Part shown: one piece after another, positions 1 through 22,280 of the stretch
How the letters are laid out: every line of letters begins with the position of its first letter
Numbering within the stretch: the stretch's first letter is position 1
Source: Ramicandelaber brevisporus
Lineage: Eukaryota; Kickxellomycota; Ramicandelaberales; Ramicandelaberaceae
Assembly (NCBI GenBank): GCA_025201865.1
Contig: MU602749.1
Span: 42,522 to 64,934, forward strand
Reading direction: 5' to 3'
DNA: 22,413 nucleotides
The notes under the pieces: model-generated
What the model was told of the DNA's origin: nothing
The model's input: only the letters and a program-made list of their open reading frames with translations
The model's database searches: none
Translations under genes and position numbers: made by a program

Positions 1-279
1 TGTTTTTATTTTTCCTCTGAACACACTCGAAACTGCGTATATCTCTCGGCAGCCTTACCCGCTCGACTTGCACTTCCACCCCCTTGACGAAGCTGCACTC
101 ACTACCTTCCCTGCTCCACAACAACTCACTCGTATATTTTCTTTTCTTTTCTTTCCTTTTCTTTCCTTCGTTGCAGTCAGCAGTTAGTTGTTTGCCAGAT
201 TCGCTAGATAGTACCAAGTCAACAGCTCAACCAAGTCAACCAAGCAGTCGAGTTTATCATACACCGCTAGCAGCAACAG

Positions 280-320
280 GTAAAAGACAGTCGGGTGATT
301 TATTACCACGTCCTTTATAG
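280..320 (+). other. Candidate 41-nt 5'-UTR intron of the LIS1 gene
   Basis: ACAG|GTAAAAG at 280 and TTTATAG ending at 320 would delimit a 41-nt intron that stops one base before the LIS1 start codon. Its size and position match candidate introns ahead of PITHD1 and the His-rich gene. The rest of 1-279 is pyrimidine-rich leader or promoter sequence with CTTTT runs around 139-170. A second acceptor-like site, TTCGTTGCAG, ends at about 176. Inferred from motifs only. Confidence 0.35.
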
Positions 321-321
321 T

Positions 322-1941
322 ATGGATCTGCAGTCTCCCACAACAGACGTAGGTGGTAGATTGCCCTCTCGCGCTCCTTCGGCTGTGCCAACCTCGGCTG
401 CCTCATCGCGCGCCGCCTCTCGCCTCCACAATGGCAGTATCAGCAGCGGTTCGTATCTTTCAACGCCGGGTACATCCACAAATGTGAACGGCAATGCAAC
501 AGGCTCCATCAGTGGCAGCAGCATTGGCCATCGCTACACTCGCTCCTTTGCCTCTCCGCATCCAGACTTCAGATCCGGCAGTAACACGCCTAGCTCGCCG
601 GCTGCAGCGTCATCTTCATCATTCAGCGCGGCACAGTTGGCACGGCCAGTTCTCACCGACAATCAGCGCAAGGACATGCACATGGCCATTTTGACATATC
701 TGAAGCTGAACAAGTTTGATGACACGGTGACCGCCCTCAAGAAGCAGATGGGTTTTGGCGATGACTATGAGGTTGACGAAAGCTCCAAATTTGCCGGAAT
801 GCTCGAGCTCAAGTGGACATCAGTAGTAAGACAGCAAAAGAAACTCCTTGAACTTCAGTCCAAAGTCACAAAGCTAGAGGCCGATCTCGAGACTGCAAAA
901 ACCATGGCTCCAACCGGCCCTGGCGGCAGACGTCCTGGTGGCGGCCGGCAGAGCGATATGCTGCCTCGCGCGCCGCAAAAGTTTGCGCTGACTGGACACC
1001 GAATGAATGTGACGCGTGTGAGATTCCATCCACTGTATACTCAAGTGGCTTCAGCCAGCGATGATAGTACCATCAAGCTGTGGGAATGCGAATCAGGAGA
1101 GTGTGAAAAGACTCTGCGTGGTCACACGAAGTCGGTCACGGATGTTGCATGGGGTCCCAAGGGCGATTGGCTGGTTAGCTGCTCGTCGGACATGTCGGTC
1201 AAGATTTGGGACACGTCTCCAGATGGCGACTACCAGTGCCTCCGCACACTCTTTGGACACGACCACACCGTGTCTGGCGTGATTGTGTTCCCTGGCGGCG
1301 AGAGAATTGCCTCCGTATCACGTGACAAGTCTATCAAGATTTGGGAGTTTACAACCGGCTATTGCACCAAGACCATTACCGGCCATGCAGAGTGGATCAA
1401 GTGCATCGATGTCAGCGAGGATGGCAAGCTGTTAATCACCGGCTCCACCGACCAGAGTGTGAGACTGTGGGATCCCGCTAACGGTGAATGCAAGGCTGAC
1501 ATGCGCGGCCATGACAACGTCGTCGAATCAGTCATGTTTGTGCCCACCAGCGCATATCCTCACGTTAGACAACTCCTCGGCATCGATCCCAAAAACACTG
1601 CAGCCATTGCCAGGCTGGGCAACCACCCTGGCCAATACGTCATATCCGGCTCTCGTGACAAGGTCATCAAGCTCTGGGAGACAGCCAGCGGTCGGTGCCT
1701 GCACACATTCACCGGTCACGATAACTGGGTGCGCCAGATCGTGTTCCATCCTTCTGGCAAGTTTATGCTATCGGCATCTGATGACAAGACTGTCAGATCC
1801 TGGGATTTGGCAACGGGAAGATGTTCGAAACAACTGCAGGCCCACGACCAGTTTGTATCGACGCTAGCATTTAGTTCAGTGTTTCCGCGGGTGGCTACTG
1901 GTTCGGTCGACACGGAGGTCAAGATTTGGGAATGTCGTTAA
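322..1941 (+). CDS. LIS1/NudF/PAC1-type dynein regulator (LisH + coiled coil + WD40)
   Basis: The 539-residue product is a clear LIS1 homologue, the dynein-binding protein that, with NudE/NudC partners, controls nuclear migration and microtubule-based transport. Residues 1-109 are a Ser/Ala/Gly-rich low-complexity extension absent from animal LIS1. A LisH dimerisation motif lies at about 114-146 and a coiled coil at about 165-193, containing KWTSVVRQQKK, close to KWTSVIRLQKK of LIS1. Seven WD40 blades run from about 221 to the C-terminus, which ends VKIWECR as in LIS1 (VKVWECR). A YPH..LLGI insertion between two blades recalls fungal NudF. I chose the ATG at 322; the open frame extends upstream only to a GTG at 295, inside a likely 5' UTR. 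Identity is very secure; the extension could be a regulatory tail. Confidence 0.96.
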   Translation: MDLQSPTTDVGGRLPSRAPSAVPTSAASSRAASRLHNGSISSGSYLSTPGTSTNVNGNATGSISGSSIGHRYTRSFASPHPDFRSGSNTPSSPAAASSSSFSAAQLARPVLTDNQRKDMHMAILTYLKLNKFDDTVTALKKQMGFGDDYEVDESSKFAGMLELKWTSVVRQQKKLLELQSKVTKLEADLETAKTMAPTGPGGRRPGGGRQSDMLPRAPQKFALTGHRMNVTRVRFHPLYTQVASASDDSTIKLWECESGECEKTLRGHTKSVTDVAWGPKGDWLVSCSSDMSVKIWDTSPDGDYQCLRTLFGHDHTVSGVIVFPGGERIASVSRDKSIKIWEFTTGYCTKTITGHAEWIKCIDVSEDGKLLITGSTDQSVRLWDPANGECKADMRGHDNVVESVMFVPTSAYPHVRQLLGIDPKNTAAIARLGNHPGQYVISGSRDKVIKLWETASGRCLHTFTGHDNWVRQIVFHPSGKFMLSASDDKTVRSWDLATGRCSKQLQAHDQFVSTLAFSSVFPRVATGSVDTEVKIWECR

Positions 1942-2192
1942 ACCACCAAAACAAACCTCTGTTCCCATTGTTTTTCCTTCTTATTTTCTTGCAAAACACG
2001 CCTTATTCTATTTTACACCTGTTCACCTAATCCTCTCTCTCTCTCTTTCATTTTTTTTTATAACGCATTGTTGGATGTCTTTTAAAACATACAAAACTGA
2101 GCAAATCTGTTTGGACCGAGAACAAGTTAACAAAGGTTAATAAAATGAAGGATAACATCAAGAATGAATGAATAAATGGGATGGAAACACAA
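1942..2192. other. Convergent intergenic region (3' ends of LIS1 and the helical-repeat gene)
   Basis: This 251-bp spacer lies between two convergent genes. It is T-rich after LIS1, has a CT run at about 2034-2047 and an A/T-rich stretch with AATAAA-like words on both strands. It presumably holds both 3' UTRs and polyadenylation sites. I see no gene. Confidence 0.5.
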
Positions 2193-5100
2193 TTAATAGT
2201 CGTAGAGGGCAGGCATCTCATCTGGAACGTCGATGTGCTCGTCAGCAAGACTGCCAAGTGCCAGATCAGCTGGATCGTGTTTATAAACATCATATCGATT
2301 CAGCAGCCACAGCATGCTCACCTTTTGCACATCGTCAATGCACGACGACCGGAGAACCACTCGATAGGCAGCTATGCCACCGCACTCCACAAATGTTCTG
2401 GCGACATTGTTTGTGGGTTGACTGGCTGAAAACAGAATCTCCAAACAATCGTACTCACGGATGATATTAGTTGATAAACTATGCGATGAATGTCTCAGAG
2501 ACTGCACAGCCATTGACATCAGAAGAGGCTGACCATTGCGTGACAGTTGCAGGAGATGGCTCAGTTGCTGATCACCATGAGGTCGCCGTGCACAACGCCA
2601 AATCATTTGGAAGAATAGATTAGCAGTATCCTGCCACAGCCCTATACAGTATGGGCTATGAATGATCGAGTGAGCGAGCTCGAGAATGCCGCTATCCACC
2701 AACAAGTACCAGAAGCTGTCTGTATCCTTTAGCCACTGTACCAAAGGCACGAGAATCCACATCAGCTCAAGGCCCTCAATCGAACTCGTTGGTGAAGCCA
2801 GCTGTGGTTGGGCAGAAATGGCAGCCAAAACATACAAGGACTGGTTGTGGTCACGGTGATCGTTGAGGATACTCACGAGAGATCTGCGAAGGTCATAGGG
2901 GTGTCTCTGGTTGTGGCTGCCTGAGAATGCCATTCTGAACAGAAGTGGGATAATGTCCAAGTCCATCATGCGGACGACGTAGACATTGCTGGTTGCCAGG
3001 AATCGAATCGTGTCGAGGATGTTATTGAATGAAGCACGGAGGAGCTTCTTTGCTGTGTTGTGGCGCTGTAGGAGCTGACTGAAGCACTCTAAAATGGCAA
3101 CCATGTCTTTGCGATGAGTGGTGGACTTGCTGACTGTTTTGCACAAACTGGACAGCGTCTCGATGGCTGCTTCACTCAGAATACGCGGGATGGATTGATC
3201 CAGGGCAAGCTGTGTAAAATACGAGACTGGATAGCGAGACAAGACTTGCAGGGCCAGCTCAGCTTGACCGTTAAATACACAATCTACGACAGACATCGCA
3301 GCCGCTCTCACCACTGGCGGATTGCCAATATCAACCAGATCGAGTATTCGGACAAAGTGCGCCGAGGATGCCAGGTGAGCAGCATGCTCGGAGCTACGTT
3401 TACCATTACTACCCAGGTGGAACACAAGTGCTTTGAGCACTGCCAGTTGCTCAGAAACCAAGGGAGTGCCGAGACCAGCAGCCATCTCGATGATGAGCGA
3501 CTTCTGCAGAGTCTCATCGAGGAGACCTTGTGATTCCAAGCGAGAGAGGGAGATAGTTTGGCTGTAAACCAGAGTTGACAATGGTAAGCTGGTGAGCAGC
3601 TGAACAATGATCGGCTGGATCTGCAGTTTGAGAAGATTCATATTGGCGATATGCTGCTGAACCCGTTGATCATGGCGCTGTTGCTGTCGCCGATGGAAAT
3701 CAAATTCTGGCGGTGGTGGTGGTGGTGGGAGATGTAGCGGGTGGCGGATAAATGGGCGGTGAGGACTTGTTGGTTTCAGGGATATATCCACAGATTGGTA
3801 CAATGTCATAAGCAAGTCGAGCAATGAGAGGCGAGACTCATTCGAGATCTCAAAGCTGCTGCTGCTGCTGCTGTTACTCACTCGCTCAGATATAGCATTC
3901 ACCAATCCATCACGAATCAAGCCGAGTGCAAATCTTCTCTCAATGTTAAGCAGAGTGCGAACAAATGTGCAAACCATGCGAGTCACTGTGTCATTAGAGC
4001 TATGTATCAGGTTGACAACAACTGCAGACAGACCACTGGCAGCAAGGGATCCATGAATATCCAACCTAAGATGGTTGGAGTGCATTGACAAACCAGATGG
4101 TATACTGCGGCCATTAATCAAAGAATCACACAGTTGACTCACTGACCAGCTGAATATATCATAACGAGATAGTGTATTTGTGGGAAGATCACGTAAATTA
4201 AACCAAATAATAATAGAAGACCTCTCGTGCTGTAGGAGACGCTCATCCATGAGACCAGCAGTAAAACATGATAGAACACGCTCCACGTTTGACTTGAGAT
4301 TTATAATAGGGCAATTTATCACAGTTTGGCATATTTCAGACAAGACTCGATACAGCTCATACACAGTAAATGGGGGCTCAGAATGGCGACTATTGAATGT
4401 AGACAGCAAAGAGTCAATGTGGTTTGATAGAACTGGCGCAAGAGTGTCAAATGGAATCGAGTGCAGCATCATGTGCGTCAGTTGACGGGAATGTCGTCTG
4501 ACATTCAGGCTCTCGCTGTTGGATGCCATATGAATTACTACTGGAAACGCATTAAACAATGCTGCAAGAATGTCTTCTGTGATAAATCGGGACACTAGAC
4601 AATTGGCGAATATCAAACATGCGACAAGCTGAGATTCACTGGATGCCGCTGTGACTTGGTTGATGACATGCAAAGCAAGAGAGGATAGTGCGCCAGAATT
4701 GGTCCCAGAGCTGTCCCCAACAATGAGTGCATTGAGTATGCGACCACATTCAGATGCGTACTTGTACAGTAAGGATGGATCATTTATCACATTTTCAATC
4801 AGCTGAATAAGAATGGGATAATCTGAAGAGGACAGTACAAGACACTTGTGTCGATTATACTTGCACATCAACTGCGCAATTAAACCAAGCACAGCTGAAC
4901 GAAGCCAGACACAATCACTCTTAGCCAGCAGACTCGGAATCATACCAATCAATCCGGAGTCCAGTATCAACATGCTCATATCAGCGCTATCATCTGATAC
5001 AACGAGCGACCACAGCTGATAGAGCAATCTCGTTCTGACTCGTAAATTGGAGGAAACCTTCAACAGCTCAATAACAGCATGAATGAGGCGGCGAGGTATC

Positions 5101-5966
5101 AAATAATGAGCTCTTGGGGGAGGCGGGGGAGGTGGTAATGGCGATGTAGAAGACGGGAAACTGTAGCCATACACAATGTACTGGTGCAAAAATGAGATGG
5201 AGTGTTGAGCCACTGGCGTGTCGGAAGATGAAGTGGACGCTTCAACCAGTTTGTCAAATGCTTCTGCGACAGCTGGATCATGTTCACCAAGTATGCTCAC
5301 AAGAGCGTGTGTCAGCTCAACGGCATGTGACAAGGACTGTGACATTGCAGTTGGGAAACTATGTTGCTGAACAAAATGAACGACAGCTGCAAGAAGCTGA
5401 CGACACTGAGCTGCCGATAATTGTTCCACAAACTGTTGCATTGACTTGATGACATGGCGTGCCATGCATATCTGCGCAGACGATGAAGGCTGAGAGAGAA
5501 ACAAAACGAGACGATCGACTGATAAACCTAACACAGAACCTTCAGCAACAACGTGATTACCATCCTGGAAGACACTCCATGCCGAAATTGCACAGAATGC
5601 GACAGATTCGCAGCTGTGGTCAAGAAGGTCGATGACAACCGCCACAACGCCAGAGGTGATATACGGCTGCAAACTCGAGATCACTCGACGTCTGACCAAG
5701 TCCACATGAGTAAAGAGGAGTCGAAGGAGACTGGTAAGACGTGAACAGCAGCCAGTTGATGGTGATGGCAGTTGTGACAAAGTGGACCGCGCGTGCTTCA
5801 GCCACACGTTACAGAATGCCTCTGCAGTGAACAGAGCTCGGAAACGCGGGTCGCTGTTATGGAGAATGTCGGCTGCTTCCATGAGACGGTTGGAGGAGAC
5901 TAGCAACTGCGGCAAAGCAACCATCGAAGGCGACATCGATGCAACCATGTCAAAAAAACATCGGTG
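2193..5966 (-). CDS. Large ARM/HEAT-like helical-repeat protein, C-terminal part (downstream exon)
   Basis: This segment encodes about 1,257 residues of a Leu/Ser/Ile-rich protein made of successive amphipathic helices, most like ARM/HEAT solenoids used as scaffolds. I cannot assign it to a named family. Two proline runs interrupt it: PPPPPPP before RAHYL in the N-terminal third, and PPPPPPP before EFDFHRRQQQ at mid-length, followed by a Gln/Arg-rich stretch. It ends ALYDY followed by TAA. Read alone, the frame opens only at a GTG (6011) just after a stop inside a duplicated segment, so this is probably not an independent gene start. Joined to 6138-7304 it forms one protein of about 1,646 residues. 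The frame is long and clean; the function is unknown. Confidence 0.8.
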   Translation of the reverse strand, partial: HRCFFDMVASMSPSMVALPQLLVSSNRLMEAADILHNSDPRFRALFTAEAFCNVWLKHARSTLSQLPSPSTGCCSRLTSLLRLLFTHVDLVRRRVISSLQPYITSGVVAVVIDLLDHSCESVAFCAISAWSVFQDGNHVVAEGSVLGLSVDRLVLFLSQPSSSAQICMARHVIKSMQQFVEQLSAAQCRQLLAAVVHFVQQHSFPTAMSQSLSHAVELTHALVSILGEHDPAVAEAFDKLVEASTSSSDTPVAQHSISFLHQYIVYGYSFPSSTSPLPPPPPPPRAHYLIPRRLIHAVIELLKVSSNLRVRTRLLYQLWSLVVSDDSADMSMLILDSGLIGMIPSLLAKSDCVWLRSAVLGLIAQLMCKYNRHKCLVLSSSDYPILIQLIENVINDPSLLYKYASECGRILNALIVGDSSGTNSGALSSLALHVINQVTAASSESQLVACLIFANCLVSRFITEDILAALFNAFPVVIHMASNSESLNVRRHSRQLTHMMLHSIPFDTLAPVLSNHIDSLLSTFNSRHSEPPFTVYELYRVLSEICQTVINCPIINLKSNVERVLSCFTAGLMDERLLQHERSSIIIWFNLRDLPTNTLSRYDIFSWSVSQLCDSLINGRSIPSGLSMHSNHLRLDIHGSLAASGLSAVVVNLIHSSNDTVTRMVCTFVRTLLNIERRFALGLIRDGLVNAISERVSNSSSSSSFEISNESRLSLLDLLMTLYQSVDISLKPTSPHRPFIRHPLHLPPPPPPPEFDFHRRQQQRHDQRVQQHIANMNLLKLQIQPIIVQLLTSLPLSTLVYSQTISLSRLESQGLLDETLQKSLIIEMAAGLGTPLVSEQLAVLKALVFHLGSNGKRSSEHAAHLASSAHFVRILDLVDIGNPPVVRAAAMSVVDCVFNGQAELALQVLSRYPVSYFTQLALDQSIPRILSEAAIETLSSLCKTVSKSTTHRKDMVAILECFSQLLQRHNTAKKLLRASFNNILDTIRFLATSNVYVVRMMDLDIIPLLFRMAFSGSHNQRHPYDLRRSLVSILNDHRDHNQSLYVLAAISAQPQLASPTSSIEGLELMWILVPLVQWLKDTDSFWYLLVDSGILELAHSIIHSPYCIGLWQDTANLFFQMIWRCARRPHGDQQLSHLLQLSRNGQPLLMSMAVQSLRHSSHSLSTNIIREYDCLEILFSASQPTNNVARTFVECGGIAAYRVVLRSSCIDDVQKVSMLWLLNRYDVYKHDPADLALGSLADEHIDVPDEMPALYDY

Positions 5967-6128
5967 CTGAATATGATGAAGCGATGCCAGTGAGTCGAGT
6001 GGCCGCATCACACTTCACCAATTGAGCACGAACACTGTCCCGCTGCTTGATCAATTCCTGGAGCTGAATGAGTGCAATCACCTGCTGGGAACAGTCTGTC
6101 TTGTTTGTGCCATCCAATGCAGCAGCAA
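5959..6128. repeat. 170-bp local direct duplication, copy inside the junction
   Basis: This copy matches 6234-6403 at 165 of 170 positions. All five differences fall in the first 66 bp and the remaining 104 bp are identical. The copies are 275 bp apart, which is not a multiple of three, so this copy is out of frame with the gene entering it. With the ten bases before it (5949-5958) it forms a 180-bp segment bounded by GTCAA at 5949-5953 and 6129-6133. Confidence 0.93.
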
Positions 6129-6137
6129 GTCAAGTAC
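5967..6137 (-). other. Candidate 171-nt intron made almost entirely of duplicated exon sequence
   Basis: On the minus strand GTACTTGAC begins at 6137 and CATATTCAG ends at 5967. Removal is in frame (57 codons) and bypasses the stop at about 6078. The interval is nearly coextensive with the second copy of a 170-bp repeat (5959-6128). The acceptor AG exists only in this copy: the source copy reads TATTCGG where this one reads TATTCAG. Splicing is inferred. Confidence 0.45.
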
Positions 6138-7302
6138 AGCCGAGTGTAACAACTCGATATTGGCATCATCTAGAGAAATGTCAGTATGTTCAATCAACAC
6201 TCCGAGTGTGAGGAGACATTGAGCACGGAGAGGCATCGGTGCCGAATATGATGAAGCGATGCCAGTCAGCCGAGTGGCCGCATCACACTGCACCAACTGA
6301 GCACGAACACTGTCCCGCTGCTTGATCAATTCCTGGAGCTGAATGAGTGCAATCACCTGCTGGGAACAGTCTGTCTTGTTTGTGCCATCCAATGCAGCAG
6401 CAATCAGCCGGTCGATAAAGCCAGATGCGACAACTGGACTGCGCAGTGAGTCTGGACCAGATTTGACAATGCAAGCCAGCAGATTAACAACATACGGCAG
6501 CTGCTGGTGCTGTTTCTCGAGATCAATGATTCGGTTCAGCACACTGGACTGGTACACAGCATGTCCATAGCCCGAGCCATGCAGTGTTGAGAGTATATGA
6601 ACAGCGGCGGCTGTGGCAAGCTGCTCGGCGTCCTTGTCCATCACTGTCGAGACACAAATCTGCTCCAGCTGCACACAGTGACTTGAAAACTGCTCAATCC
6701 AGTAGGGTTTCAACGTCATTACTGATATCAGCTGTAACAGATGACCTCGAATGTGCACTGTTGTAGTGGCTCTGGTTTGGTCACTCAGCAGGTCAATGAC
6801 ATAGTCAATAATCTCAGAATCACGGATCAGCCTCTGTGCAAACAACTCTCCGCCAGCCAGCTCGGCAAGAATATCCACAGCGTCGACAAAGGCAGGATGC
6901 TCATAGCCAGTCATCACAACTCTATTCAGCGCTGGCACAACATCCAGAAGCCACACGTGACAATAGCTCGAACGCCAATGTGCTTTACAGTGCAAGAACA
7001 GTGCAAAAGTACGAACAGCCGCAGCCACCACCTCAGCGTTGCTCGATGTCATCAGCTTCGGAATGGCATCTATAAACACCGATACATCGCGCAGTGCTTC
7101 AGTTTTGGATGCCGCCTCGTCAAACTCTTCGCCGCGATAGTCATTGCGAGTCAGGAGAAAGTCAGAGCCAGCAGATGAAGACGCAGGCAAGGAGGACTTG
7201 AGCCAGGACTGCAGCTCGGAGAGAGTCTTCAGTTGAGAAACACATTCGCCAGCTAGTCCAGCACACAGTTCTTGAGCAGCAGCACGCAGATCACAGCAAG
7301 TC

Positions 7303-7304
<2 letters not shown>
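6138..7304 (-). CDS. Large ARM/HEAT-like helical-repeat protein, N-terminal part (upstream exon)
   Basis: This segment encodes 389 residues beginning MTCCDLRAAAQELCAG, with helix-rich, leucine-rich repeats of the same style as the downstream segment. The ATG at 7304 is preferred; the open frame continues upstream only through a CTTT microsatellite (KERK repeats) to a TTG. Without splicing the frame continues past 6138 into a duplicated segment and ends as TVPSR-stop at 6078, giving a truncated protein of 408 residues from this ATG. Splicing GT(6137)...AG(5967) joins it in frame to the downstream segment. Simple removal of 180 bp between two GTCAA repeats also restores one frame, giving 1,643 residues. 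BRAT1-like or other HEAT scaffolds are possible, but I have no specific motif. Confidence 0.75.
6234..6403. repeat. 170-bp local direct duplication, source copy within the coding frame
   Basis: This is the in-frame member of the repeat pair, coding for the region ALDGTNKTD through TRLTGIASSYSAPM on the minus strand. Relative to it, the other copy carries four synonymous third-position changes and one Gln-to-Lys change when read in this frame. Confidence 0.9.
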
Positions 7305-7339
<35 letters not shown>

Positions 7340-7523
7340 TCAATCAACAGCAGGGTTTGTGTGTTTGCAGATTTCGCGTGCAGGAACGGGGACTGCGCAT
7401 ACACACACACACACACACACACACATCCAATCATCGCAGTGAGATGCACGAGAAACCACATTGAAAGGAGGTCAAGAGAGAATCGCATGTATTAAAACAT
7501 ATAGTTATCATGCCTAATCAATT

Positions 7524-7673
7524 TTACTTCCAACAACGAGGCTGTCGTTGCCTCCAACGCCGTGAAGAGTGCGCATGACCCAATGCCATCACAAGAATAT
7601 CATTCAGCACTTTTGCACTCATTCCATTCTGCCATTGATCGATGCGCTTCCTCACTCGCTGTTGCCACAGCAT
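7524..7673 (-). CDS. Possible 49-residue small ORF (hypothetical)
   Basis: An ATG at 7673 opens a 49-codon frame preceded by an in-frame TAA four codons earlier and closed by TAA. The product begins MLWQQRVRKRIDQW, is Trp/Arg-rich and has a hydrophobic middle (VLNDILVMAL). It shows no recognisable domain or targeting signal. It lies in a region that otherwise looks noncoding, so chance is a serious alternative. It could also be the last exon of a spliced gene. Confidence 0.2.
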   Translation of the reverse strand: MLWQQRVRKRIDQWQNGMSAKVLNDILVMALGHAHSSRRWRQRQPRCWK

Positions 7674-7800
7674 GCTGTCAATTTATGGTAGAGGAGATCT
7701 GAGTTCGTTTTATTCACTCCAGTATATATCAACTGTCACTTTAATATCAGACAGGTATTACAAATCAGGTTGAATACAAGGGTACGGAGGGTATACACAC

Positions 7801-7819
7801 ATATGTACAATGTACATAT
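7801..7819. repeat. Perfect inverted repeat ATATGTACA-A-TGTACATAT
   Basis: Nine bases on each side of a single A are exactly complementary. The site sits in the intergenic region about 500 bp upstream of the helical-repeat start. It could be a dimeric factor site or chance in AT-rich DNA. Confidence 0.7.
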
Positions 7820-8230
7820 CAGGTTGACTGTATGATTGCCGAAGTGGGATGCAATGTGTGCGTATGTCTGTGCATCACGCCACTGCCAGTACTAAAACTG
7901 AATCAACTTTTGAAAGGTACTGATTTTAATTGAAGGGTACGTGAGTTTCAACTCTGTCTGTTTGAATAAGATGGAGTTAAAAAAAACAAAGGTGAGGAAA
8001 GAGGGATATATATATATATATATATAGAGAGAGAGTTTAGAGCTGAGGAACACTTGCAGTGGAGTCTTTTGAAGCAAACAAAGTATATTATAATATACAG
8101 TCTATGAACAAATTAAATAATGCCAGAAGTCAAGATCATCTGGTGATGATATATAAAACATGATATTATGTGATGGATGAGGTAGCCGGTGAGTTGAGTG
8201 AGGTTCTGCAGATACTGTCGATGGTTCCAG

Positions 8231-9304
8231 CTAAATAATTTCGTCTTCATCACTCGTGTCACTCGATACTGGCCTATGGTCATCATCATCATCATTACCA
8301 TTACCATTAAACCACCTTCTCTTATAGCGGCTCGACGAGTTGTTTGACTTGACATTGTTGGCGGCTGCGTCCAACTGAGTAATGAGAAAGACCGAAGTCA
8401 GTGCTTTCGATATAACAAGTCGCAGTACGAGCGCGGGGACTGTTGTTAATCTTTTGCCATGATGAGCGCGTTTTCTGTGATCACTCTTATTATAAACTGC
8501 ATAGCTACAATGTCCGCAGTCGGATGTAACACACATCCATCCCTGAACAATATCCTGATGCTGTGATTGACTTGGCTGGCTAATTGCTGCAGCGAGATAT
8601 GAGTTGCCAGTGTGCTGATTAATATTGGGATCGGCATTTGTATTTACTGCACTGTCTGGTAGAATCGTGCAGTCAATCGATTTCCCATCAAATCCATGTG
8701 CCTGCTGCAAATGAGTCAGCAGGCATTCCGGCACCAGTTTACATCCATAACAAACTAACACTCCAGTCGTAGTATGATGACCACAGCGAACATCATTCAC
8801 AAAAAAGTCCTCCACTCCATGGAAATTGAAGCTGCGATGAGCTTTATGAGCTGGAGACTGCTGCTGTTGCTGCTGTTGTTTTAAAGTTTTGCCATGAACT
8901 TTCCTTAAATGAGTACGTACAGCATCAATTGTCTTGAGTTTTGATGCACAATCCGAGAATGGACATGGCCAGCGATCATCCAACGACTCCCGAGTCAGAA
9001 CAAATGTTTGGTCAAATGTAATGAGTTCTGTTTGGAGCCTGTGCCCATACTGATGCATTCTCAGATGGCTGGAATAGCTGAACCTATGGCCGCATCCAGG
9101 ATGTTCACACACCAATCGTCCCTGATTACTGTGAGACTCATCATTGCTCCCGGATTTGACATCACCTTCTCCGCTGTTAGCTTCTGAGTCAGACTCGAGT
9201 TTGAGATTGCTCATAAGCAGACTCGGCTCGAGCTTGACTTGCACGTCGACTGCTGCTGCTGCTGCTGTGGCTGTCGGCTCCGTCTTGATCTGCACGGTCG
9301 ACAT
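8231..9304 (-). CDS. C2H2 zinc-finger protein with N-terminal SUMO-type motifs
   Basis: The 357-residue protein has well-formed C2H2 fingers: C66-X4-C71-X12-H84-X3-H88, C114-X4-C119-X12-H132-X4-H137 and C258-X4-C263-X12-H276-X4-H281. A degenerate finger-like element lies at C185-X2-C188-X9-H198-X4-H203. The N-terminus has three psi-K-x-E sites (IKTE at K7, VKLE at K24, LKLE at K35), the first two followed by proline. A seven-residue polyQ tract is at 143-149, and the tail is acidic (DDDDD, ending TSDEDEII). It is probably a nuclear DNA-binding regulator; fingers this scattered could also serve RNA or protein binding. The start is the first ATG and the 3' neighbour is intergenic DNA. Confidence 0.85.
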   Translation of the reverse strand: MSTVQIKTEPTATAAAAAVDVQVKLEPSLLMSNLKLESDSEANSGEGDVKSGSNDESHSNQGRLVCEHPGCGHRFSYSSHLRMHQYGHRLQTELITFDQTFVLTRESLDDRWPCPFSDCASKLKTIDAVRTHLRKVHGKTLKQQQQQQQSPAHKAHRSFNFHGVEDFFVNDVRCGHHTTTGVLVCYGCKLVPECLLTHLQQAHGFDGKSIDCTILPDSAVNTNADPNINQHTGNSYLAAAISQPSQSQHQDIVQGWMCVTSDCGHCSYAVYNKSDHRKRAHHGKRLTTVPALVLRLVISKALTSVFLITQLDAAANNVKSNNSSSRYKRRWFNGNGNDDDDDHRPVSSDTSDEDEII

Positions 9305-9721
9305 GGCTGGCTGGCTGGCCGCTGAGTTGATCTACTGTTCGGCTCTGCTGGTGGTGGTAGTTGGTCAATCTTCAGTCGAGTAGTTAAGATCTGAAGAGTA
9401 AACCAGCTGTTTCGTTTATGTGGCAATCGAGAATGAATGCGAATAAAACCAACTTTTGAAACTGACAGATGAGTCCGCACTTCACATAAAACGTTCCCTG
9501 TCCCACAGTGTCTCGGGTATTTTTTACGCTCTCTATGTAATAGGCGACCCTCCTTGTGGCACGCACACATGCCGGTGGTACGCACACACGCCGGTGGCAC
9601 GTAGCTGTCAATAAATTGACTGTGGGCAAATGACTCGTTTGATATTAATGGATTTGAACTCTATCAAGTATGAATACGATTAACGATAGTTTGAACACGA
9701 CCCGATAAGCTGGAATATGAT
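9305..9721. other. Intergenic region upstream of the zinc-finger gene
   Basis: This 417-bp interval holds the promoter and 5' UTR of the zinc-finger gene and the 3' UTR of the charged 166-residue gene, both on the minus strand. The only structured element seen is a 19-bp direct repeat at 9556-9603. A GGCT run lies just before the zinc-finger ATG. I see no supported gene. Confidence 0.5.
9556..9603. repeat. 19-bp direct repeat, about 2.4 copies (GTGGYACGCACACAYGCCG)
   Basis: GTGGCACG, GTGGTACG and GTGGCACG begin at 9556, 9575 and 9594, each followed by related sequence, a strict 19-bp period. The array lies about 250 bp upstream of the zinc-finger start and could be a cluster of factor sites, or a small minisatellite. 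Confidence 0.75.
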
Positions 9722-10222
9722 CTACAAACCACGGTCGCCTTTGTCCGACTTCGTTCCCTTGCCATCTCCATCATCACCAGTACTGTTACGAGATTCAGCA
9801 CGAATCCGCTCGGCATTAACGCGATAACCAAGCACGAACTTTTGCTCACCACCATCAGCATGCATTTCTCCCCTCCTTCGCTTCAATTCACGCTCAGTCT
9901 GCTTCCGTTCAGCTTCTTCGATCGTCATTGCTGACGTGGAACCGTTGTTTGATGCCGTATGCTTTTTATGCACTGTACCATCCTTCCGCTTGGTTGATGC
10001 TAATGCGTCTCGTCTATTTTCTGCTGAGGCGCGATGCAGTCGTTCCCGTATCTGATCAAGCCGAGCTTGATAGTCTGGCTTTGATGACCGCTGTGGCTGT
10101 GGTTGTGGCTGTGGTTGTTGTGGTTGTTGTGGCTGCGTTTCCTCGCGATCTGCGTCCTCTGTGACCTCTGTGACGTCTGTTGCCTTGCTTTCTTCAACGA
10201 TCTCCGTTCGCTTCGACGTCAT
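9722..10222 (-). CDS. Charged, low-complexity 166-residue protein of unknown function
   Basis: The product begins MTSKRTEIVEESKATDV. It has an acidic N-terminus, a Gln/Pro repeat (QPQQPQQPQPQ) at about residues 30-45, then basic and acidic helical stretches (QARLDQIRERLHRASAENRR and TIEEAERKQTERELKRRRGE) likely to form coiled coils. The tail is rich in Gly, Asp and Lys. I recognise no domain; the composition suggests a nuclear or RNA-associated protein, but that is a guess. The frame stays open upstream to about 10396, but that extension lies within the 3' end of the homeodomain gene and reads as noncoding, so the ATG at 10222 is preferred. It starts 79 bp after the homeodomain stop on the same strand. 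Confidence 0.7.
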   Translation of the reverse strand: MTSKRTEIVEESKATDVTEVTEDADREETQPQQPQQPQPQPQPQRSSKPDYQARLDQIRERLHRASAENRRDALASTKRKDGTVHKKHTASNNGSTSAMTIEEAERKQTERELKRRRGEMHADGGEQKFVLGYRVNAERIRAESRNSTGDDGDGKGTKSDKGDRGL

Positions 10223-10301
10223 GCCAAATAAACAAACGTGTATATGTATGTTTGTGTATTCAATGAGGTAGCAGTGTTGTTTATTGTTTTTTTGATTGAT
10301 T

Positions 10302-11180
10302 TTAAAGGGTAGATGCGAGATGAGCTCCAAGCTGCTGTTTGAGCTTGTCAACAATGCGCTGCATGAGCTGATCCAGCCGCGTACCGAACATTGCATCCAA
10401 TGTCACCTGCAATACCTCGATTGATCCGTCGTCTTCACCTTTTAGAACGGACTGGATGATAGACTCGCAGCACATTATCCAGATTGGACTACTCTCACCA
10501 CTCCTCATCACTCGCTTGGTGTCTGCATCGACACACGGAATGATACTACAGCCGAGACCGCGCATTCGTCTGTTTCCAAACCAGTTGGACACCTGACTCT
10601 GGAATAGTCCAAGATACACTGCTATTGTATCGATGCGAACTGTGCTGGGCATTTTGTCACATGTCCACATCCTTGTCAGCTTCTTTTCTTGAGACGCAGT
10701 AATGCCAATCACGCGATCCAGGGGACTTAGTGTCTGTTTCTGCTTGCATTGCGAGTATCGCGAACCACGGTTATACGAAGTGATTCCAGCTGCAACGATG
10801 CGGATGATTTCAATCAGTGCCTTGACCTCTTCTTGTGGGCTGTCTTGACTATCTTGGTCACTGTGCTTGCTTTCTTTTAGCTGCTGCATCTCTTTCACCA
10901 CCATTTGTCGGGTCAGACTGCAGATATGTCTACGATGTGCCGAAGCAACTGACGTAGTAGCTTTCGCCGTGTTCTTGGACACCTGAGTGTGCCTCGTCTC
11001 GCTAAGACTGATGGCTGCTCGTGTGTATATGGTTTCAATTGAGTCTTTGAACAAATCCGGCTGTTTGTCACTCCGTTCCAACAATGCATTTAGACGATAT
11101 GGCTGGTGAAGCTTGGCAATGTAAAGTATCTGTGCACTGCGCCAAAGACTCATCGCTTGTACGAACCTGTTCAATGTCAT
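10302..11180 (-). CDS. Homeodomain protein with atypical recognition helix (WFGNRR)
   Basis: The protein is 292 residues if translation starts at the ATG at 11180 (MTLNRFVQAMSLW); an in-frame ATG at 11291 would give 329. A 60-residue, non-TALE-length homeodomain lies at about 153-212. Landmarks are L16, W20 in place of the usual F20, P26, L38 and L40, then QSQVSNWFGNRRMR with W48, F49, N51 and R53. Position 50, a base-specificity residue, is Gly. The N-terminal 150 residues and the C-terminal tail (LDQLMQRIVDKLKQQLGA) are predicted helical. It is a sequence-specific DNA-binding regulator by family. The shorter start is preferred because the upstream sequence looks like the last exon of another small ORF, whose stop overlaps this start by ATGA. 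Confidence 0.82.
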   Translation of the reverse strand: MTLNRFVQAMSLWRSAQILYIAKLHQPYRLNALLERSDKQPDLFKDSIETIYTRAAISLSETRHTQVSKNTAKATTSVASAHRRHICSLTRQMVVKEMQQLKESKHSDQDSQDSPQEEVKALIEIIRIVAAGITSYNRGSRYSQCKQKQTLSPLDRVIGITASQEKKLTRMWTCDKMPSTVRIDTIAVYLGLFQSQVSNWFGNRRMRGLGCSIIPCVDADTKRVMRSGESSPIWIMCCESIIQSVLKGEDDGSIEVLQVTLDAMFGTRLDQLMQRIVDKLKQQLGAHLASTL

Positions 11181-11443
11181 TTTTTGTATTGTTGCTTCCG
11201 TTGCCTTTGCTGTTTTCGTTGCCGTAGTAGTTTGTGTATAGTTTGAACAGAACGAGCTGAGGCAAAGTAAATGGTAGAACCGAACACTCATTTACCTAAA
11301 TGCTCGTCCACTTGCTTGCTTACTGCCTCCCTATCTGCTTCATCCATCGCAATGACACCTAATTTCGCCAAATTGGAGGCAAGCTGTTTCCACCATCGTT
11401 TGCTGTGTTCCTCCCCTTCCTTCCTTTTCATCCTTCGTTTCAT
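11177..11443 (-). CDS. Possible two-exon 75-residue basic protein upstream of the homeodomain gene
   Basis: Exon 1 (11443-11296, 148 nt) begins MKRRMKRKEGEEHSKRWWK and is amphipathic, with an acidic patch (MDEADREA). It ends TTTAG|GTAAAT. Exon 2 (11256-11177) follows TTTGCCTCAG and reads ARSVQTIHKLLRQRKQQ, ending QYKK-TGA. The intron would be 39 nt (11257-11295). The continued amphipathic, basic pattern across the splice favours a real protein, but I recognise no family. Its stop overlaps the homeodomain ATG at 11180 (ATGA), so it could be an upstream cistron or regulatory uORF, or exon 1 could belong to a longer homeodomain isoform through another acceptor. Confidence 0.4.
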
Positions 11444-11721
11444 CCATACTCCGACATGTTAAAAAGAAAAGCGGGACTCATTTTTCACACAATTTTAATA
11501 CTCGATTTTTTTTTCATTCGCAATCATCCGCGAATAGGACTGCTTCTCGCTGACTCTCCTCTCTTCTTGGTTCGAAGTGCTTTGGCCTCCTCCTCTCTTC
11601 GTTCACACCTCTGCCGCTGACTGTTATCACTCTCGACGACGACGACAACGACGACTTGTAACAAACACGCGTACTGTTACTCTATCTTTTACTTTTGTTT
11701 CTTTTTTCTTCTCCTATTCTA
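11444..11721. promoter_or_regulatory. Divergent promoter region between the minus-strand homeodomain locus and the P-type ATPase
   Basis: About 278 bp separate the two outward-facing genes. The interval contains A/T-rich DNA around 11480-11520 and a long pyrimidine-rich leader (TTTTACTTTTGTTTC, CTTCTCCTATT) immediately ahead of the ATPase ATG. A GAC repeat lies at about 11635-11655. No TATA element or specific factor site is certain. Confidence 0.4.
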
Positions 11722-14700
11722 ATGTCCTTGAACGCGCTGCGTGTTCAAGCGGCTCATCCGCTCGCGTCGCTTGAATCTCAGTTCAAGACCAACTTCTCCA
11801 ACGGTCTGGCGTCAAAGACCGCGTCAGACCGCCTGCAGGCGCACGGACCCAATGTCCCGCCGCCGCCGCCCGCCGCGCAGCTCAGTATCCCCCGCATTAT
11901 CCTTCACGAGCTGACCGAGCCGATGATGGTTTTGCTCGAGGTTGTAGCGGTTCTCTACTACTTTTGGGGAGCTTCCTGGACCGACACTGCAGTTGTGTGG
12001 GTTTCGATTCTTTTGGCCGTCAGTGTGGAGCTGTATACCGATGTCAAGGCAAAGTTGAGCTTGGCAAGTCTGGCCAAAGAGGCTCCGTTCAATGTTATTG
12101 TGGTGCGCGATGGCGGTGACGATGTCATTGTCAAAAGCACCGATGTTACAGTTGGCGACATTGTCAAAGTCGGCAGAGGAATGCGAGTTGCAGCTGATGG
12201 TATCTTGGTGAAGTCATACGCGCTGACGGTGGATGAGAGCATCTTGACTGGTGAGAGCATTCCGGCCGACAAACACGTCATTGACAACTCTGAAGCACCA
12301 GCTAACTCTGCCGCCGCCGCCGCCACGGAAGGTGACGGTCTCCAGGTTGTGGTCGATGACAGCGCTCTGACTGTGCCAGCCAATGTGTTGTGCACCGGCA
12401 CGACTGTCGTGTCTGGTTCTGGCACCATGATTGTCACTGCCATTGGCGCTTCCGCGTACTCAGCAGAGATTGCATCCAAGTCTGTCCGTCCGTCGCCAAA
12501 GTTCAGACCAACTCCAGTGCAAGTGTTGATGCGCAAGATTACGTTCAAGTTGACGCTGATTGCAGCATTCTTCTGCTTCGCTCTGCCTCTCATTGCAGTC
12601 TACGTTAACCCAAAGGGTGCAGTCTCCTGGCGCGAGGCTGTCTTGATTGGCATTTCGCTGGCATTCGCAACCATACCTGAAGAGTTGCCTTTGATTGTCA
12701 AGTCTGCGCTGGCTGTTTGTGCAAACAACCTGGCTACAAAGCACGATGCATTGGTGAGAAACTTGCATGCAGCCGAAGCACTGGGTGCAGTTACGGCTAT
12801 TGTGACAGACAAGACTGGAACGCTGACAAAGGCGCAGCTGACAGTCAGCTCGTTCATTGTACCAACTGTGGATGGAAACGATAGCGATGTGAAGGAGGTT
12901 ACTGTGGAGGATATCAAGGCAGTCGATGACGCAATCTCTGCTGCTGCCGCTAGTGCTGCTTCTGCTGCTACTACTACTACTGTTCAGAATGATGAATCAG
13001 TTGAAGCAGTTGAATCGGCTGAAGCAGATGAGGCTGAAGAGGTTCCTTCTTTTGAGCAGACTGCACAGATTGGAGCTTTGCTGGCCACATGGCTCGGCGC
13101 ATTGGAGCCAGCCATTCGTAGTCACATCAATTCATATGTGAAGTCATCAATCTCCAAGCAGCAGCAGCAGCAGCAATCTCCAGCCTCATCTTTGCCATCA
13201 TCCTGCCATGATCCAGTTGACAAGGCAATTGTGAGCTACCTGTCGTCTACTTCTACACTTGGCTCATTGCTGGACAGCATTACCAGCGGCTCATCATCGC
13301 TTGGCCCAATGATTTCTGAAGACTCGGGAGTAACTGCAGAGAAGACATTTGAGCGCACATTTTTGCTTGATGCCAATGACAATAGCCGTCAAATTACATT
13401 GGTTAAAGGATCTCCAGAGTCTATAATTGAGTCGGTTGATGATATATTTGTTAATCAGCATTCAGAGAAGGCACTTGCGCAGTTGACTCCAACTACTCTC
13501 AGAAAACTACGCACTTATGAACCATCGGCGAGTGAGTCCGTTGTACTTGATTATCTGGATGCATGTGGAATCAAGGGTAGATTGGTTAGAATGACCGACT
13601 CTCGTAAGAAGCAATTACTGGACTCAATCAGCACTGCAGCCAACCGTGGATGCCGTAACATTGGCTTTGCTATTAGAGTCACTCTTCCACCGTCGCCTGC
13701 CCCATCTCCCATTAGTCACAAGGTGCACGGTGGTAGTGGTGGCCGTAAACACGTGTCTGCCTCAACATTTGCCAGATCAACTCCCACTGAACTGACTGTG
13801 TTTGTTGGCACACTGGCCACTATTGACCCATTGAGACCAGGTGCAATCTGGGGAGTTGCTGATTGCAAGAAAGCTGGCTTGCGTGTGCTGCTGGCATCCG
13901 GTGATCATGTTGGCACTGCCACTGCTGCTGCTCATGCCGTTGGAATCCCTTCATCCGTTCTTGCCATTGATGACGTTTCTAACAGCAGTGCTAGTGGTAG
14001 TGGCAATAATGAGAATGCCACACCGTATGCAATCACTGGTGCAACCCTTGAACATGCCTCATCTGAAGAAGCTGTATCGCTGGTTGAGTCCACTAATGTG
14101 TATGCAAGAATGACGCCAGATTCCAAGCTACTTTTGGTCAAAACACTTCAGTCAATCGGACACGTTGTGTGCTTTGTTGGCGATGGAGTGAATGATGCTC
14201 CTGCCATGGCTGCTGCTGATGTTGGTGTTGCTATGGCTGGCTCCCCAACCTCTGCTGATTTAGCCATGGATTCTGCTTCGCTGGTTATATTGAATTCTGA
14301 TCTTGGTGCAATCTCCCATTGCATTCGTGAAGGTAAGCGCGCTCTGTCTGCCGTTCGTAAAACTGTCATATTCTATGTGGCTTGCAAAATTGCAATGGTT
14401 CTGTTGTTTGCATCAGCTATTTTGATTGGCGGAATATCTCCATTGACTCCAGCTCAGATCATTGTATTGGAGATGTTTATGGATGTTGGCGCCGCTGCTA
14501 CCTTTGTTGTTGAGCCGTTGGAGGATGATGGCGATAACGAGCCTGCTGCATCTCGTGCTCCATGTCAAGATGGAGAAGGAGAAGGAGAGGAAGGCACTCG
14601 CGACATTGTCTCATCCACGCCATCTGCTGCAGTGCCATCCATTTATGGCTCTGATGTCACTCTGACTATTTTGTCTGGAGTTCTCTTGTTCCTTCTGACT

Positions 14701-15129
14701 GGATTTGACTTCTTCTTTACTCTGTTTGTCCATCCACGCTACCGTACTAATATCAAGGCAGCCACCACCGTACTGTTCCTCTCATGGCTTCTTAACCATG
14801 TCACACTTGGTCTCGTTCTCCGCACTCGCAAGATTCCACTGCGCAAGCATGGCTTCTTTAACTCAAACAAGATGTTCACTGCATGGACTGCCGCTGTCGT
14901 TATTGGTGCTCTCCTGGCCATTGGTCCACTGCGCAAGTTCCTTGGGTTTGCGAAGCTCTTCAGTTGGACGAAGGGCATTGATGGACTGGTGCTGGCTATG
15001 CTGGTGAGTGGACCTGTCATCACCATTGCCATCTTTGAGTCTATCAAGGAATACCTGTTGATCAAGAACTCAACTCTTCCACAGCCAGAGAATGCCGAAG
15101 AGGAATCTCAGCCTTTGCTTTCTAATTAA
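11722..15129 (+). CDS. P-type cation-transporting ATPase, type II-like with a PEELP motif
   Basis: The 1,135-residue membrane pump has all P-type landmarks: an N-terminal NF.NGL...GPN cation-ATPase segment, a TGES actuator loop (LTGESIPADK), phosphorylation site D363 in DKTGTLTK, a nucleotide-domain KGSPE, DPLRPG, and the hinge GDGVNDAP (D821). Hydrophobic segments suggest ten helices, four before and six after the catalytic core. TM4 reads IPEELP, keeping the Glu that binds Ca2+ in SERCA (IPEGLP). TM6 reads LEMFMDVGAA and keeps the Asp, but TM5 lacks the SERCA Asn and Glu. The substrate (Ca2+, H+ or another cation) is therefore open. The N-domain carries Ala/Thr-rich, acidic and polyQ inserts. 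The ATG at 11722 is preferred over an upstream in-frame TTG. Confidence 0.92.
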   Translation: MSLNALRVQAAHPLASLESQFKTNFSNGLASKTASDRLQAHGPNVPPPPPAAQLSIPRIILHELTEPMMVLLEVVAVLYYFWGASWTDTAVVWVSILLAVSVELYTDVKAKLSLASLAKEAPFNVIVVRDGGDDVIVKSTDVTVGDIVKVGRGMRVAADGILVKSYALTVDESILTGESIPADKHVIDNSEAPANSAAAAATEGDGLQVVVDDSALTVPANVLCTGTTVVSGSGTMIVTAIGASAYSAEIASKSVRPSPKFRPTPVQVLMRKITFKLTLIAAFFCFALPLIAVYVNPKGAVSWREAVLIGISLAFATIPEELPLIVKSALAVCANNLATKHDALVRNLHAAEALGAVTAIVTDKTGTLTKAQLTVSSFIVPTVDGNDSDVKEVTVEDIKAVDDAISAAAASAASAATTTTVQNDESVEAVESAEADEAEEVPSFEQTAQIGALLATWLGALEPAIRSHINSYVKSSISKQQQQQQSPASSLPSSCHDPVDKAIVSYLSSTSTLGSLLDSITSGSSSLGPMISEDSGVTAEKTFERTFLLDANDNSRQITLVKGSPESIIESVDDIFVNQHSEKALAQLTPTTLRKLRTYEPSASESVVLDYLDACGIKGRLVRMTDSRKKQLLDSISTAANRGCRNIGFAIRVTLPPSPAPSPISHKVHGGSGGRKHVSASTFARSTPTELTVFVGTLATIDPLRPGAIWGVADCKKAGLRVLLASGDHVGTATAAAHAVGIPSSVLAIDDVSNSSASGSGNNENATPYAITGATLEHASSEEAVSLVESTNVYARMTPDSKLLLVKTLQSIGHVVCFVGDGVNDAPAMAAADVGVAMAGSPTSADLAMDSASLVILNSDLGAISHCIREGKRALSAVRKTVIFYVACKIAMVLLFASAILIGGISPLTPAQIIVLEMFMDVGAAATFVVEPLEDDGDNEPAASRAPCQDGEGEGEEGTRDIVSSTPSAAVPSIYGSDVTLTILSGVLLFLLTGFDFFFTLFVHPRYRTNIKAATTVLFLSWLLNHVTLGLVLRTRKIPLRKHGFFNSNKMFTAWTAAVVIGALLAIGPLRKFLGFAKLFSWTKGIDGLVLAMLVSGPVITIAIFESIKEYLLIKNSTLPQPENAEEESQPLLSN

Positions 15130-15303
15130 CTATTCCTCTTCTGAATCCTCTTCTTCTGAATCCTTTTTTATTTAGCAGTTTTTTACTTTAAGATTTCAAG
15201 TCATTTGATTACAGTCAAGTCGGTTAAGTTATGTTAAGTTAAATTAAATGGATTCAAAAAGAAAGTAAAAAAGGATTCATAATAAAGGAAATCAAACAAA
15301 GAA
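15130..15303. other. Convergent spacer between the ATPase and the histone deacetylase
   Basis: The 174 bp after the ATPase stop contain a near-tandem TTCTGAATCCT repeat (about 15139-15163), a T-rich run, and GTTAAGTTATGTTAAGTTAAATTAAA repeats serving presumably as both 3' UTRs. I see no gene. Confidence 0.45.
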
Positions 15304-17440
15304 TTATTGTGGATAAAATGGAGTCTTTTCAGATGCAGCAGTATTGTTTGGTTGGAAGACTGCCTCACCACGAGGTGCAGGGAAACCGCCCGCAATCTTG
15401 TTACCAGCGGAGGCAGAATGAGTGGATGTGGATGCCAGAAGGGAAGTGGCACCTGGAGTGGATCGCTGTTGCTGTTCGTCACGTTCGCGACGTAGAGTGT
15501 ATTGATTTGCACTGCGCTTGCCCTTATTGCCTCTGCCAGTTGCACCAGCTGCTGCTGCAGAGCTTCGACCTGAGCGGCCACCATAGTATTGCTCATCTCT
15601 TCTATCATCACCATCGTCTTCGGAGTCAGAGTATTCTTGATATCTTACAATACGCTGATTGGTTTGACGCTGAGTACTTCTAACATCCATTGCGGCCTGT
15701 TCAGTGGCTGATCTATACTGTCCATTGATAGAATCGCCTCCATTAGTATTACCATGGTAAACATATTGATCAAAATCACCCTGCGCATTTAACATTGCAG
15801 TGTTGTTGGACATGTAGTAGTTGTATAAATCCAACTCACCATTTCTGGCTTTATTGATTTTATTCGAAAGACCGATTAATTCATCCTCATCATCTTCACT
15901 CTCATACTCTTCAGCTGTTGTGGCTGATTGATTCCACTGATCAGTTGTGGTAAAAATCGACTTCTTCATTGTTGGTCTGATTGGTGCAGATGGGGCAAAT
16001 GGCAAATTACGCAAGTGATCCACAATTTTCTTGATAATTTCATTCAGATACTCTGGTGAGTTATTGTTGGCCATGTTGGTTGGTGGAACCTCCAATCTAT
16101 GATTTGGGTAGTAATAGTCGCTATACTCATCAAATGGAAGTGTGACTGGCACGTCAGTTCCTACTAATCTGGATGTTTCATATGTCCACGCACGTGCCAC
16201 GTTTCTAATTGTGTATCCACCTCCTCCCAGCACCAGCATTGGAATATTGAATGATTTTACAAATTCAACACAGTTGGCATGTCCATACATTGACAGATTA
16301 AACGTGCCCAATTTGTCTCCAGCCAGCGAATCAGCTCCACATTGCAGCACAATTGCGCCTGGTCTGTACCACTCTATAACTCGGCTAATAACTGGCTGGA
16401 ATACACTGGCGTACGTTTCGTCATTAATGCCTGATCTGAGTGGCACATTGACTGCATAGTGCTTGCCCTTGCCAATTCCAATGTCCTCAACATCGCCTGT
16501 GCCTGGGAAGAATCTGTTTCCATATTTATGAAGCGAGACAGTCATTACTCGATCAGTGGTGTAGAATGCCTCTTCCACACCGTCACCATGATGCACATCA
16601 ATGTCAATGTACAATACTCGCTGATGCACTCTAAGCAACTCCAATATAGCCAATACAATGTCATTTACATAGCAGAATCCACTGGCTTCATTCTTCTTTG
16701 CATGATGCAATCCTCCACTCCAATTAATTGCCACATCCGCCTCTCCCTCGTTTAGCTTGTTTGCACCGGCAATCGATCCACCTGCCGATATACTGCAAAA
16801 TTCAATCAATCCCTGGAATAGTGGGCAATCATCCATGTATGCAAATCGATCTTGACGCTCCGGGTGCTTTTCAACCACTTCAGGTGTCATTAGCGTAATG
16901 AAATCAATGTATTCGTCTGTGTGGAACCGTGTCATTTGTGCCTTAGTTGCGCGTGGTGGAACCAGCACTTGCATCTTTGATGACAGTCCATAGTTTGTGA
17001 CTAGTGAATGGGTCATTCTCATGCGCTGTGGCTTCATCGGATGTGTTACACTGTACTGATAATTGCCAACATTGGCTGTTTAGATATAAGAGAAAAGTAA
17101 AGTAGAATGAAATGAAATGAAAAGAGAAGAGAATAGAAGAAATGAGTACATCATAATAGTGGATGCATTGGAGCAGAGCAGAGCAGAGCAGAGTAGAGTA
17201 TTGTCAGTGCCTAATTGCTTTTTGTGTTTCATTGTAAACACTTAAGCTCAGCTGCTGCCGTATCGAGACAAGAGGAAAGAGACAACAGGCAGGAGGAAAG
17301 GGAAGAGGAAAGAGAGAGATTGCAGACTGCAACGTGTGGGTGGGTGGCTGTAGATGGAGTTGAGCCAGTTATAACGTACGGTCGTAGTAATAGGAGACTC
17401 GCCGACGGCTGCCAGCTTCAACGTGCTTTATGCCGTTCAT
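15304..17440 (-). CDS. Class I (Rpd3/HDAC1-type) histone deacetylase, two exons
   Basis: The join is exon 1 at 17440-17380 and exon 2 at 17075-15304, giving 610 residues. Exon 2 alone opens at [10 protein letters not shown] and lacks the conserved N-terminus. The missing YYYD..VGNY block is supplied by exon 1 ([20 protein letters not shown]) plus the first 38 nt of exon 2 ([12 protein letters not shown]). Catalytic features line up with human HDAC1 at a constant offset of four: His144/His145, Asp180 and His182 (DIDVHHGDG), Asp269 (GADSL) and Tyr308 ([10 protein letters not shown]). Past about residue 400 lies a low-complexity, acidic then Gln/Ser/Arg-rich tail. It removes acetyl groups from histone lysines in Sin3/Rpd3-type corepressor complexes. 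Identification is very secure; splicing is inferred from the perfect fit. Confidence 0.95.
17076..17379 (-). other. 304-nt GT-AG intron of the histone deacetylase gene
   Basis: The donor is C|GTACGT at 17379 and the acceptor is TATCTAAACAG at 17076, preceded by a long pyrimidine-rich tract. The split codon is CCC (C from exon 1, CC from exon 2). The join reproduces the invariant YYYD-xx-VGNY spacing of class I deacetylases. The plus strand of the intron shows a GCAGA repeat at about 17174-17194 and GGAAAGAG runs. Confidence 0.88.
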
Positions 17441-17534
17441 ACTAGGTGGAAGCGTGTGCGTGCACTTGCGGGGTGTCTTTGTTGTTAGCTGATTGCTGTT
17501 GGTTGTTGCTGGTTGGGTTTCTTTTTGCTGTTGC

Positions 17535-17569
<35 letters not shown>

Positions 17570-20099: not shown

Positions 20100-20102
20100 T
20101 GT

Positions 20103-22226: not shown

Positions 22227-22280
22227 GTTGTAGGAATAGTTTGATCAAATAATGAGACGTGATGTTACTTTTTTTTGCAG

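Follow-up and report, generated by a model that had tools for sequence, protein, structure and literature searches.

A recent, apparently locally templated insertion of exon DNA in a large gene of Ramicandelaber brevisporus, considered as interruption and as candidate intron

A large gene in the window (the whole 22,413-nt stretch of Ramicandelaber brevisporus DNA analyzed here) contains a second, out-of-frame copy of 170 nt of its own coding sequence, inserted at the point where its long reading frame is broken. Comparison with paralogues in the same genome indicates that the insert is a recent, locally templated insertion into an intron-free gene. The copy, its source, its flanking direct repeat and its absence from the closest paralogue are all directly visible, and from these we infer that the insert arose by a repair route. 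For its present effect, we give roughly an even chance to an interruption of a duplicate gene after local templated repair, and consider this more likely than an efficiently spliced intron.

The duplicated segment and its origin

The gene lies on the minus strand of contig C82 in a 17.9-Mb, 510-contig draft assembly, and runs from a Met codon at 7304 to a stop at 2193. An earlier note, made from the sequence of the window alone, had described a 170-bp piece of coding sequence that recurs 275 bp away. The two copies of this direct repeat were indeed found at 5959–6128 and 6234–6403, with a spacing of 275 nt, a gap of 105 nt between them, and identity at 165 of 170 positions (97%), a match over a length that excludes chance. 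The features of the locus are as follows, all on the minus strand:

6234–6403, minus: copy A, the original coding segment and source of the duplication, from the in-frame alignment with the C6 paralogue
5959–6128, minus: copy B, the inserted duplicate, which is out of frame, contains three stops and has no counterpart in the C6 paralogue
6129–6133, minus: TTGAC, left-hand flanking direct repeat (GTCAA on the plus strand)
5949–5953, minus: TTGAC, right-hand flanking direct repeat; the C6 paralogue has a single TTTGAC here
5967–6137, minus: candidate 171-nt GT–AG intron, GTACTT...ATTCAG, phase 0, from sequence and site scores
6078–6080, minus: first stop met in frame on read-through of the insert, from the frame-0 translation
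6138–7304, minus: upstream coding part, 389 codons beginning MTCC, from translation
2193–5966, minus: downstream coding part, with 1,257 codons before the stop and no interruption of the frame, from translation

When copy B was read through in frame 0, three in-frame stops were encountered (6080–6078, 6053–6051 and 6017–6015), in agreement with the claim that the copy is out of frame and brings a stop. The third is owed solely to one of the five differences between the copies, C to A (minus-strand letters) at 6015. All five are located, as copy A/copy B positions, at 6297/6022, 6290/6015, 6270/5995, 6267/5992 and 6243/5968. The flanking repeat, GTCAA on the plus strand, is located at 5949 and again at 6129, 180 nt apart, and five T residues (minus strand) that are absent from the source separate copy B from its right-hand member.

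The genome was searched for relatives of the insert region, of window positions 1–12000 (39 of 140 candidates scored) and of positions 12000–22413. One close copy of the gene was found, on contig C6 (87% and 91% identical), with the similarity confined to the gene. At the insertion site this paralogue reads GCTGTG-TTTGACATGG, with no insert and a single TTTGAC; as suggested earlier, collapse of the flanking repeat (180 bp) restores the frame. More distant paralogues on C475 (29% identity) and C110 (28%) have one open frame each, of 1,664 and 1,688 residues, respectively. From the absence of the insert in C6 and these uninterrupted frames, we take the family to be intron-free at this place and the insert to be derived.

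Copy A differs from C6 at 11 sites within the 170 nt, and copy B carries the base of copy A at 10 of these 11; B was therefore copied late, in this lineage and after the split from C6. With C6 as the outgroup, four of the A/B differences were polarized as changes in B and the remaining one as a change in A. All five fall within 54 nt; the probability of such clustering by chance is ≈0.036 in a post hoc test, and it may reflect error-prone copying, making the insertion younger than the number of differences suggests.

The sequence of events that we prefer would start with a double-strand break or stalled fork inside the gene, for the repair of which 170 nt of the sense strand, located 275 nt upstream, served as the template. 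This would have left about five untemplated T residues and the 5-bp direct repeat TTGAC; a short target direct repeat of this kind, as looked for in double-strand-break repair, is present at both ends (6133–6129 and 5953–5949) where C6 has its single TTTGAC. The insert would now interrupt the gene: transcripts would retain it or splice it poorly, translation would terminate at 6078–6080, and the downstream frame would still be open mainly through the youth of the event, in a multi-member gene family.

Splice signals of the candidate intron

The earlier note had proposed that a GT–AG interval from 6137 to 5967 is an intron that joins 389 and 1,257 residues in frame. The 171-nt interval does so, in phase 0, and the predicted spliced product would be 3 residues longer than the ancestor, with HRCFFD replacing VLD or VFD. 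The acceptor AG was likewise confirmed to result from a copy-specific change of TCGG to TCAG, at 5968, which the outgroup indicates to be a derived change in copy B. The donor GTACTT had been described as pre-existing; its GT predates the insertion, because the C6 counterpart is GTGTTT, but the complete GTACTT does not.

The reference introns were taken from 29 short stretches at conserved protein motifs and from the HDAC gene in the window. These yielded 12 introns, or 11 after removal of a paralogous one on C474; the remaining stretches had no clear intron, and two of the 29 were shortened by contig ends. Junctions were placed by eye from conserved residues and GT–AG, which may bias the set toward standard donors; only the HDAC junction is backed by a deposited protein (610 residues, 100% match), and the junction on C37 is the least certain. 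An ab initio intron search by coding score over 188,619 bases gave too few clear cases. Among the stretches, the two close actin paralogues on C306 and C474 (L076/L077) share a common 5′ intron and have an apparent frame break, seen as overlapping matches, at the same later place.

All 11 reference donors have G at +5 (six GTATGT, four GTACGT and one GTTCGT), whereas T takes this position in the candidate donor, GTACTT, which departs from the GTAYGT-like pattern. A GTAY donor that lacks the +5 G would keep few base pairs to U1. The acceptor is ACAG in 9 of the 11 reference introns and TCAG in the candidate. In 8 of the 11, a YTRAY motif precedes the AG by 9–27 nt; no such branch motif was found in the last 60 nt of the candidate, and the branch-like CTGAC of copy A is CTCAC in copy B. 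The reference introns are 189–304 nt long, compared to 171 nt for the candidate. New introns in Drosophila are reported to have weaker splice sites (PMC2809761), which softens the argument from the weak signals of the candidate.

The combined site score of the candidate, 10.39, lies among those that the 11 reference introns reach when scored leave-one-out (8.8–18.6). In the ranges tested, however, the 26 donor and 17 acceptor sites form 142 frame-restoring, stop-free GT–AG pairs, among which the 171-nt pair ranks 8th with matrices from 11 introns and 9th with matrices from eight. The best-scoring pair, GTATGT at 6495 to TAACAG at 5854, reaches 18.53 and spans 642 nt.

That a GT–AG interval is almost coextensive with the copy is correct (its sites are offset from the ends of the 180-nt insertion by ≈4 and ≈13 nt) but unremarkable alone. 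Insertions of 175 nt with a 5-nt repeat were simulated in the gene (frame-breaking n = 5,258, 5,227 and 5,323), and 27%, 43% and 49% of the frame-breaking ones had a frame-restoring GT–AG within 9, 13 and 15 nt of both ends, respectively. A separate count within 6 nt of both ends gave 15% of 3,984 simulated insertions. The mere presence of such a pair is therefore not evidence for an intron. The quality of the candidate sites, on the other hand, is better than chance, since only 0.6%, 1.4% and 1.8% of the simulated insertions scored as well.

The genome looks intron-poor inside domains. Of 28 Ras matches, 18 covered at least 150 of 162 profile positions in a single frame; the corresponding figures were 6 of 7 for proteasome matches (180 or more of 189 positions) and 7 of 10 for ubiquitin-conjugating matches (130 or more of 140). 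Introns near gene starts do occur, as seen in the 11 reference introns.

Constraint on the frame and competing explanations

The 3,771-nt (3.8-kb) downstream frame has neither a stop nor a frameshift, and no stop was present among the aligned codons of C82 and C6 in the upstream or the downstream part. Between these two genes, dN/dS is 0.348 over 388 codons of the upstream part and 0.376 over 1,250 codons of the downstream part. If the downstream part were evolving neutrally, the probability of finding it intact would be 0.063, 0.008 or 0.002 at indel/substitution ratios of 0, 0.05 and 0.1 on a clock of four changes, and 0.33, 0.14 or 0.08 at the same ratios on the one-change clock of copy A. 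Protein changes were assigned to C82 or C6 with the help of two outgroup paralogues; the C82:C6 counts were 15:6 upstream and 42:42 downstream when a match to either outgroup sufficed, and 5:1 and 6:10 when both had to agree. The intact frame and the relative rates favor a gene that is still in use, provided that the clock is correct. The C6 paralogue has a lesion of its own, a 7-nt frame-changing insertion with neighboring changes near the equivalent of window position 3963 (C6 ≈37665–37708), with both flanking parts open; young lesions thus arise in this gene pair without any intron.

The earlier note had called this a giant helical-repeat gene. Neither part matched any Pfam family at an E-value of 0.001; at E-values up to 1, the window parts gave weak matches below the cut-off, ARM and HEAT models among them, and the intact paralogues matched no family. 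A family profile weakly reached importin alpha (E = 0.0013), and a single-sequence structure model of the upstream part was all-helical, with a mean pLDDT of 55.5 (low confidence). A helical-repeat protein is plausible from these predictions. No relatives of the downstream protein were found in a set of 5.8 billion proteins that is incomplete for this fungus: a zinc-finger-like family with dozens of matches in the genome is missing from it, and absences therefore mean little. A member of that family, zinc-finger-like by eye, is located at 8231–9331 of the window. The family is dispersed, with genomic matches at ≈70% identity and often a second partial copy nearby; the gene in the window matched no Pfam family and had no match in the 5.8-billion-protein set.

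We considered the possibility that the spliceosome removes the insert as a 171-nt phase-0 intron, so that a break-repair insertion whose template lies elsewhere in the exon, 275 nt distant, would now be spliced out as an intron, in a fungus that looks intron-poor. The fit of frame and phase, the score within the reference range, the derived acceptor, the intact downstream frame and a downstream protein that has changed no faster than that of C6 all point this way. Against it stand the missing +5 G, ACAG and YTRAY motif, a length below that of every reference intron, seven other frame-restoring pairs with higher scores, and a genome in which a weak mid-gene intron is less expected. Efficient splicing is thus a possibility that we hold only tentatively, at appreciably lower weight than interruption, which we prefer because of the lack of a +5 G and of YTRAY, the loss of CTGAC, the seven better pairs and the lesion in C6. 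Of the original proposal of an intron from duplicated exon DNA, the duplicated exon DNA, the recent insertion and the insert-free ancestor were upheld; splicing was not established.

Two of the better-scoring pairs, the 642-nt pair from 6495 to 5854 and a 342-nt pair from GTTCGT at 6308 to ATTCAG at 5967 (score 12.9), might rescue the gene with a shortened protein. However, both would excise coding sequence that C6 also retains, C6 has GTATGC rather than GTATGT at the 6495 donor, and each distant paralogue has one continuous frame, all of which makes rescue through such sites very improbable. It is also rather unlikely, if less so, that the duplication is a false join or the allele of one haplotype in the 510-contig draft. 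Assembly redundancy is indicated by equal-scoring gene matches on contig pairs such as C344/C484 and C164/C275, and two other local duplications are 99–100% identical. Copy B, however, has four derived changes of its own, junctions without long overlap with the source and a 5-bp flanking repeat, which are not usual products of an assembler, and no second allele was found in the searches with the insert region and the two parts of the window. A further pair of contigs with equal-scoring gene matches, C179/C337, was observed; together with C344/C484 and C164/C275, this suggests unmerged haplotypes or very recent segmental copies.

Known intron-gain systems and genome context

Tandem or segmental duplication of genomic DNA as a source of new introns has been described in the Rogers model, by Gao and Lynch (2009) and by Hellsten (2011), as reported in PMC3443670 and PMC4974935. 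The nearest parallel is an intron of the potato RdRp gene, born from a duplication with a cryptic upstream donor (PMC4974935). As in such gains, exonic DNA of the same gene has been duplicated here and could supply an intron from latent or newly mutated sites, the "imprecise" gain of these accounts; the insert is homologous to an exon of the same gene, and an insert-free ancestral state was found. In contrast to them, the copies are 105 nt apart rather than head-to-tail, and the candidate sites do not come from a duplicated AGGT, the donor being flanking exon and the acceptor a point change in the copy. A classical AGGT tandem-duplication intron was rejected: the two copies do not abut, and continuing through copy B in the frame of copy A leads to a stop just beyond it.

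Introns gained in Daphnia are reported to have short direct repeats at their ends (4–12 bp in PMC4202315) and filler bases (PMC3443670, PMC4202315), similar to the 5-bp repeat and extra bases seen here. Potential sources were given there for four of 90 introns, whereas the source in this case is known and belongs to the same exon, at a distance of 275 nt. For Daphnia, cDNA was prepared; the present locus is known from genomic DNA. The insert also resembles an ordinary gene-disrupting local duplication or templated insertion, in that neighboring DNA was copied, the frame was broken and the gene belongs to a duplicate family; it differs from one in that its GT–AG fits the insert better than in 98–99% of the simulated insertions.

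The phenomenon, if real, belongs to an already known kind of intron gain. No account of this locus was present among the literature titles listed for Ramicandelaber and for templated insertion with intron gain. Few cases of intron gain combine a known source with a sister copy that has no intron. Were it spliced, the present insert would be young enough for the source, the target, the flanking repeat and the base change that made the acceptor all to be readable, and would tie break repair to the birth of an intron at a single readable locus. If it is not spliced, it carries a caution, as about a quarter to a half of the simulated insertions here offer a frame-restoring GT–AG near their ends.

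Local direct duplications (at least 60 nt, at least 85% identity, starts 50–3,000 nt apart) were surveyed in 201,620 bases of fetched loci, which are not a random sample. Six were found, five of them head-to-tail or within 10 nt of being so; a gap of ≈100 nt is seen only in the duplication studied here. One of the others, at C6:14954–15174 (L007), is a head-to-tail duplication with a spacing of 109 nt and 99% identity that splits an open frame into 242 and 290 residues, so that a frame-breaking local duplication is not unique to the gene studied. Its best frame-restoring GT–AG pair scores 10.72 and excises 673 nt, far beyond the duplicate.

Within the window, a 153-nt head-to-tail repeat with four differences is present at 21962–22267, in a class II (D/K/N) tRNA synthetase gene on the minus strand. 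It covers the 5′ leader and the first codons and provides two ATGs, the upper of which begins a short reading frame that terminates within the second leader. Elsewhere, an insert in the frame of a kinase (L043, C1:23340–23491), which we take to be Aurora-like from a motif, was considered as an introner-like element, a reading rejected when the insert turned out to be a dispersed TG...CA element. This element is ≈148 nt long, is flanked by CATC and is presumably a solo LTR; near-identical copies are found on C226, C426 and C11 and a partial one on C323 (L057, L058, L059, L060), and three of the four full copies have 4-bp target repeats.
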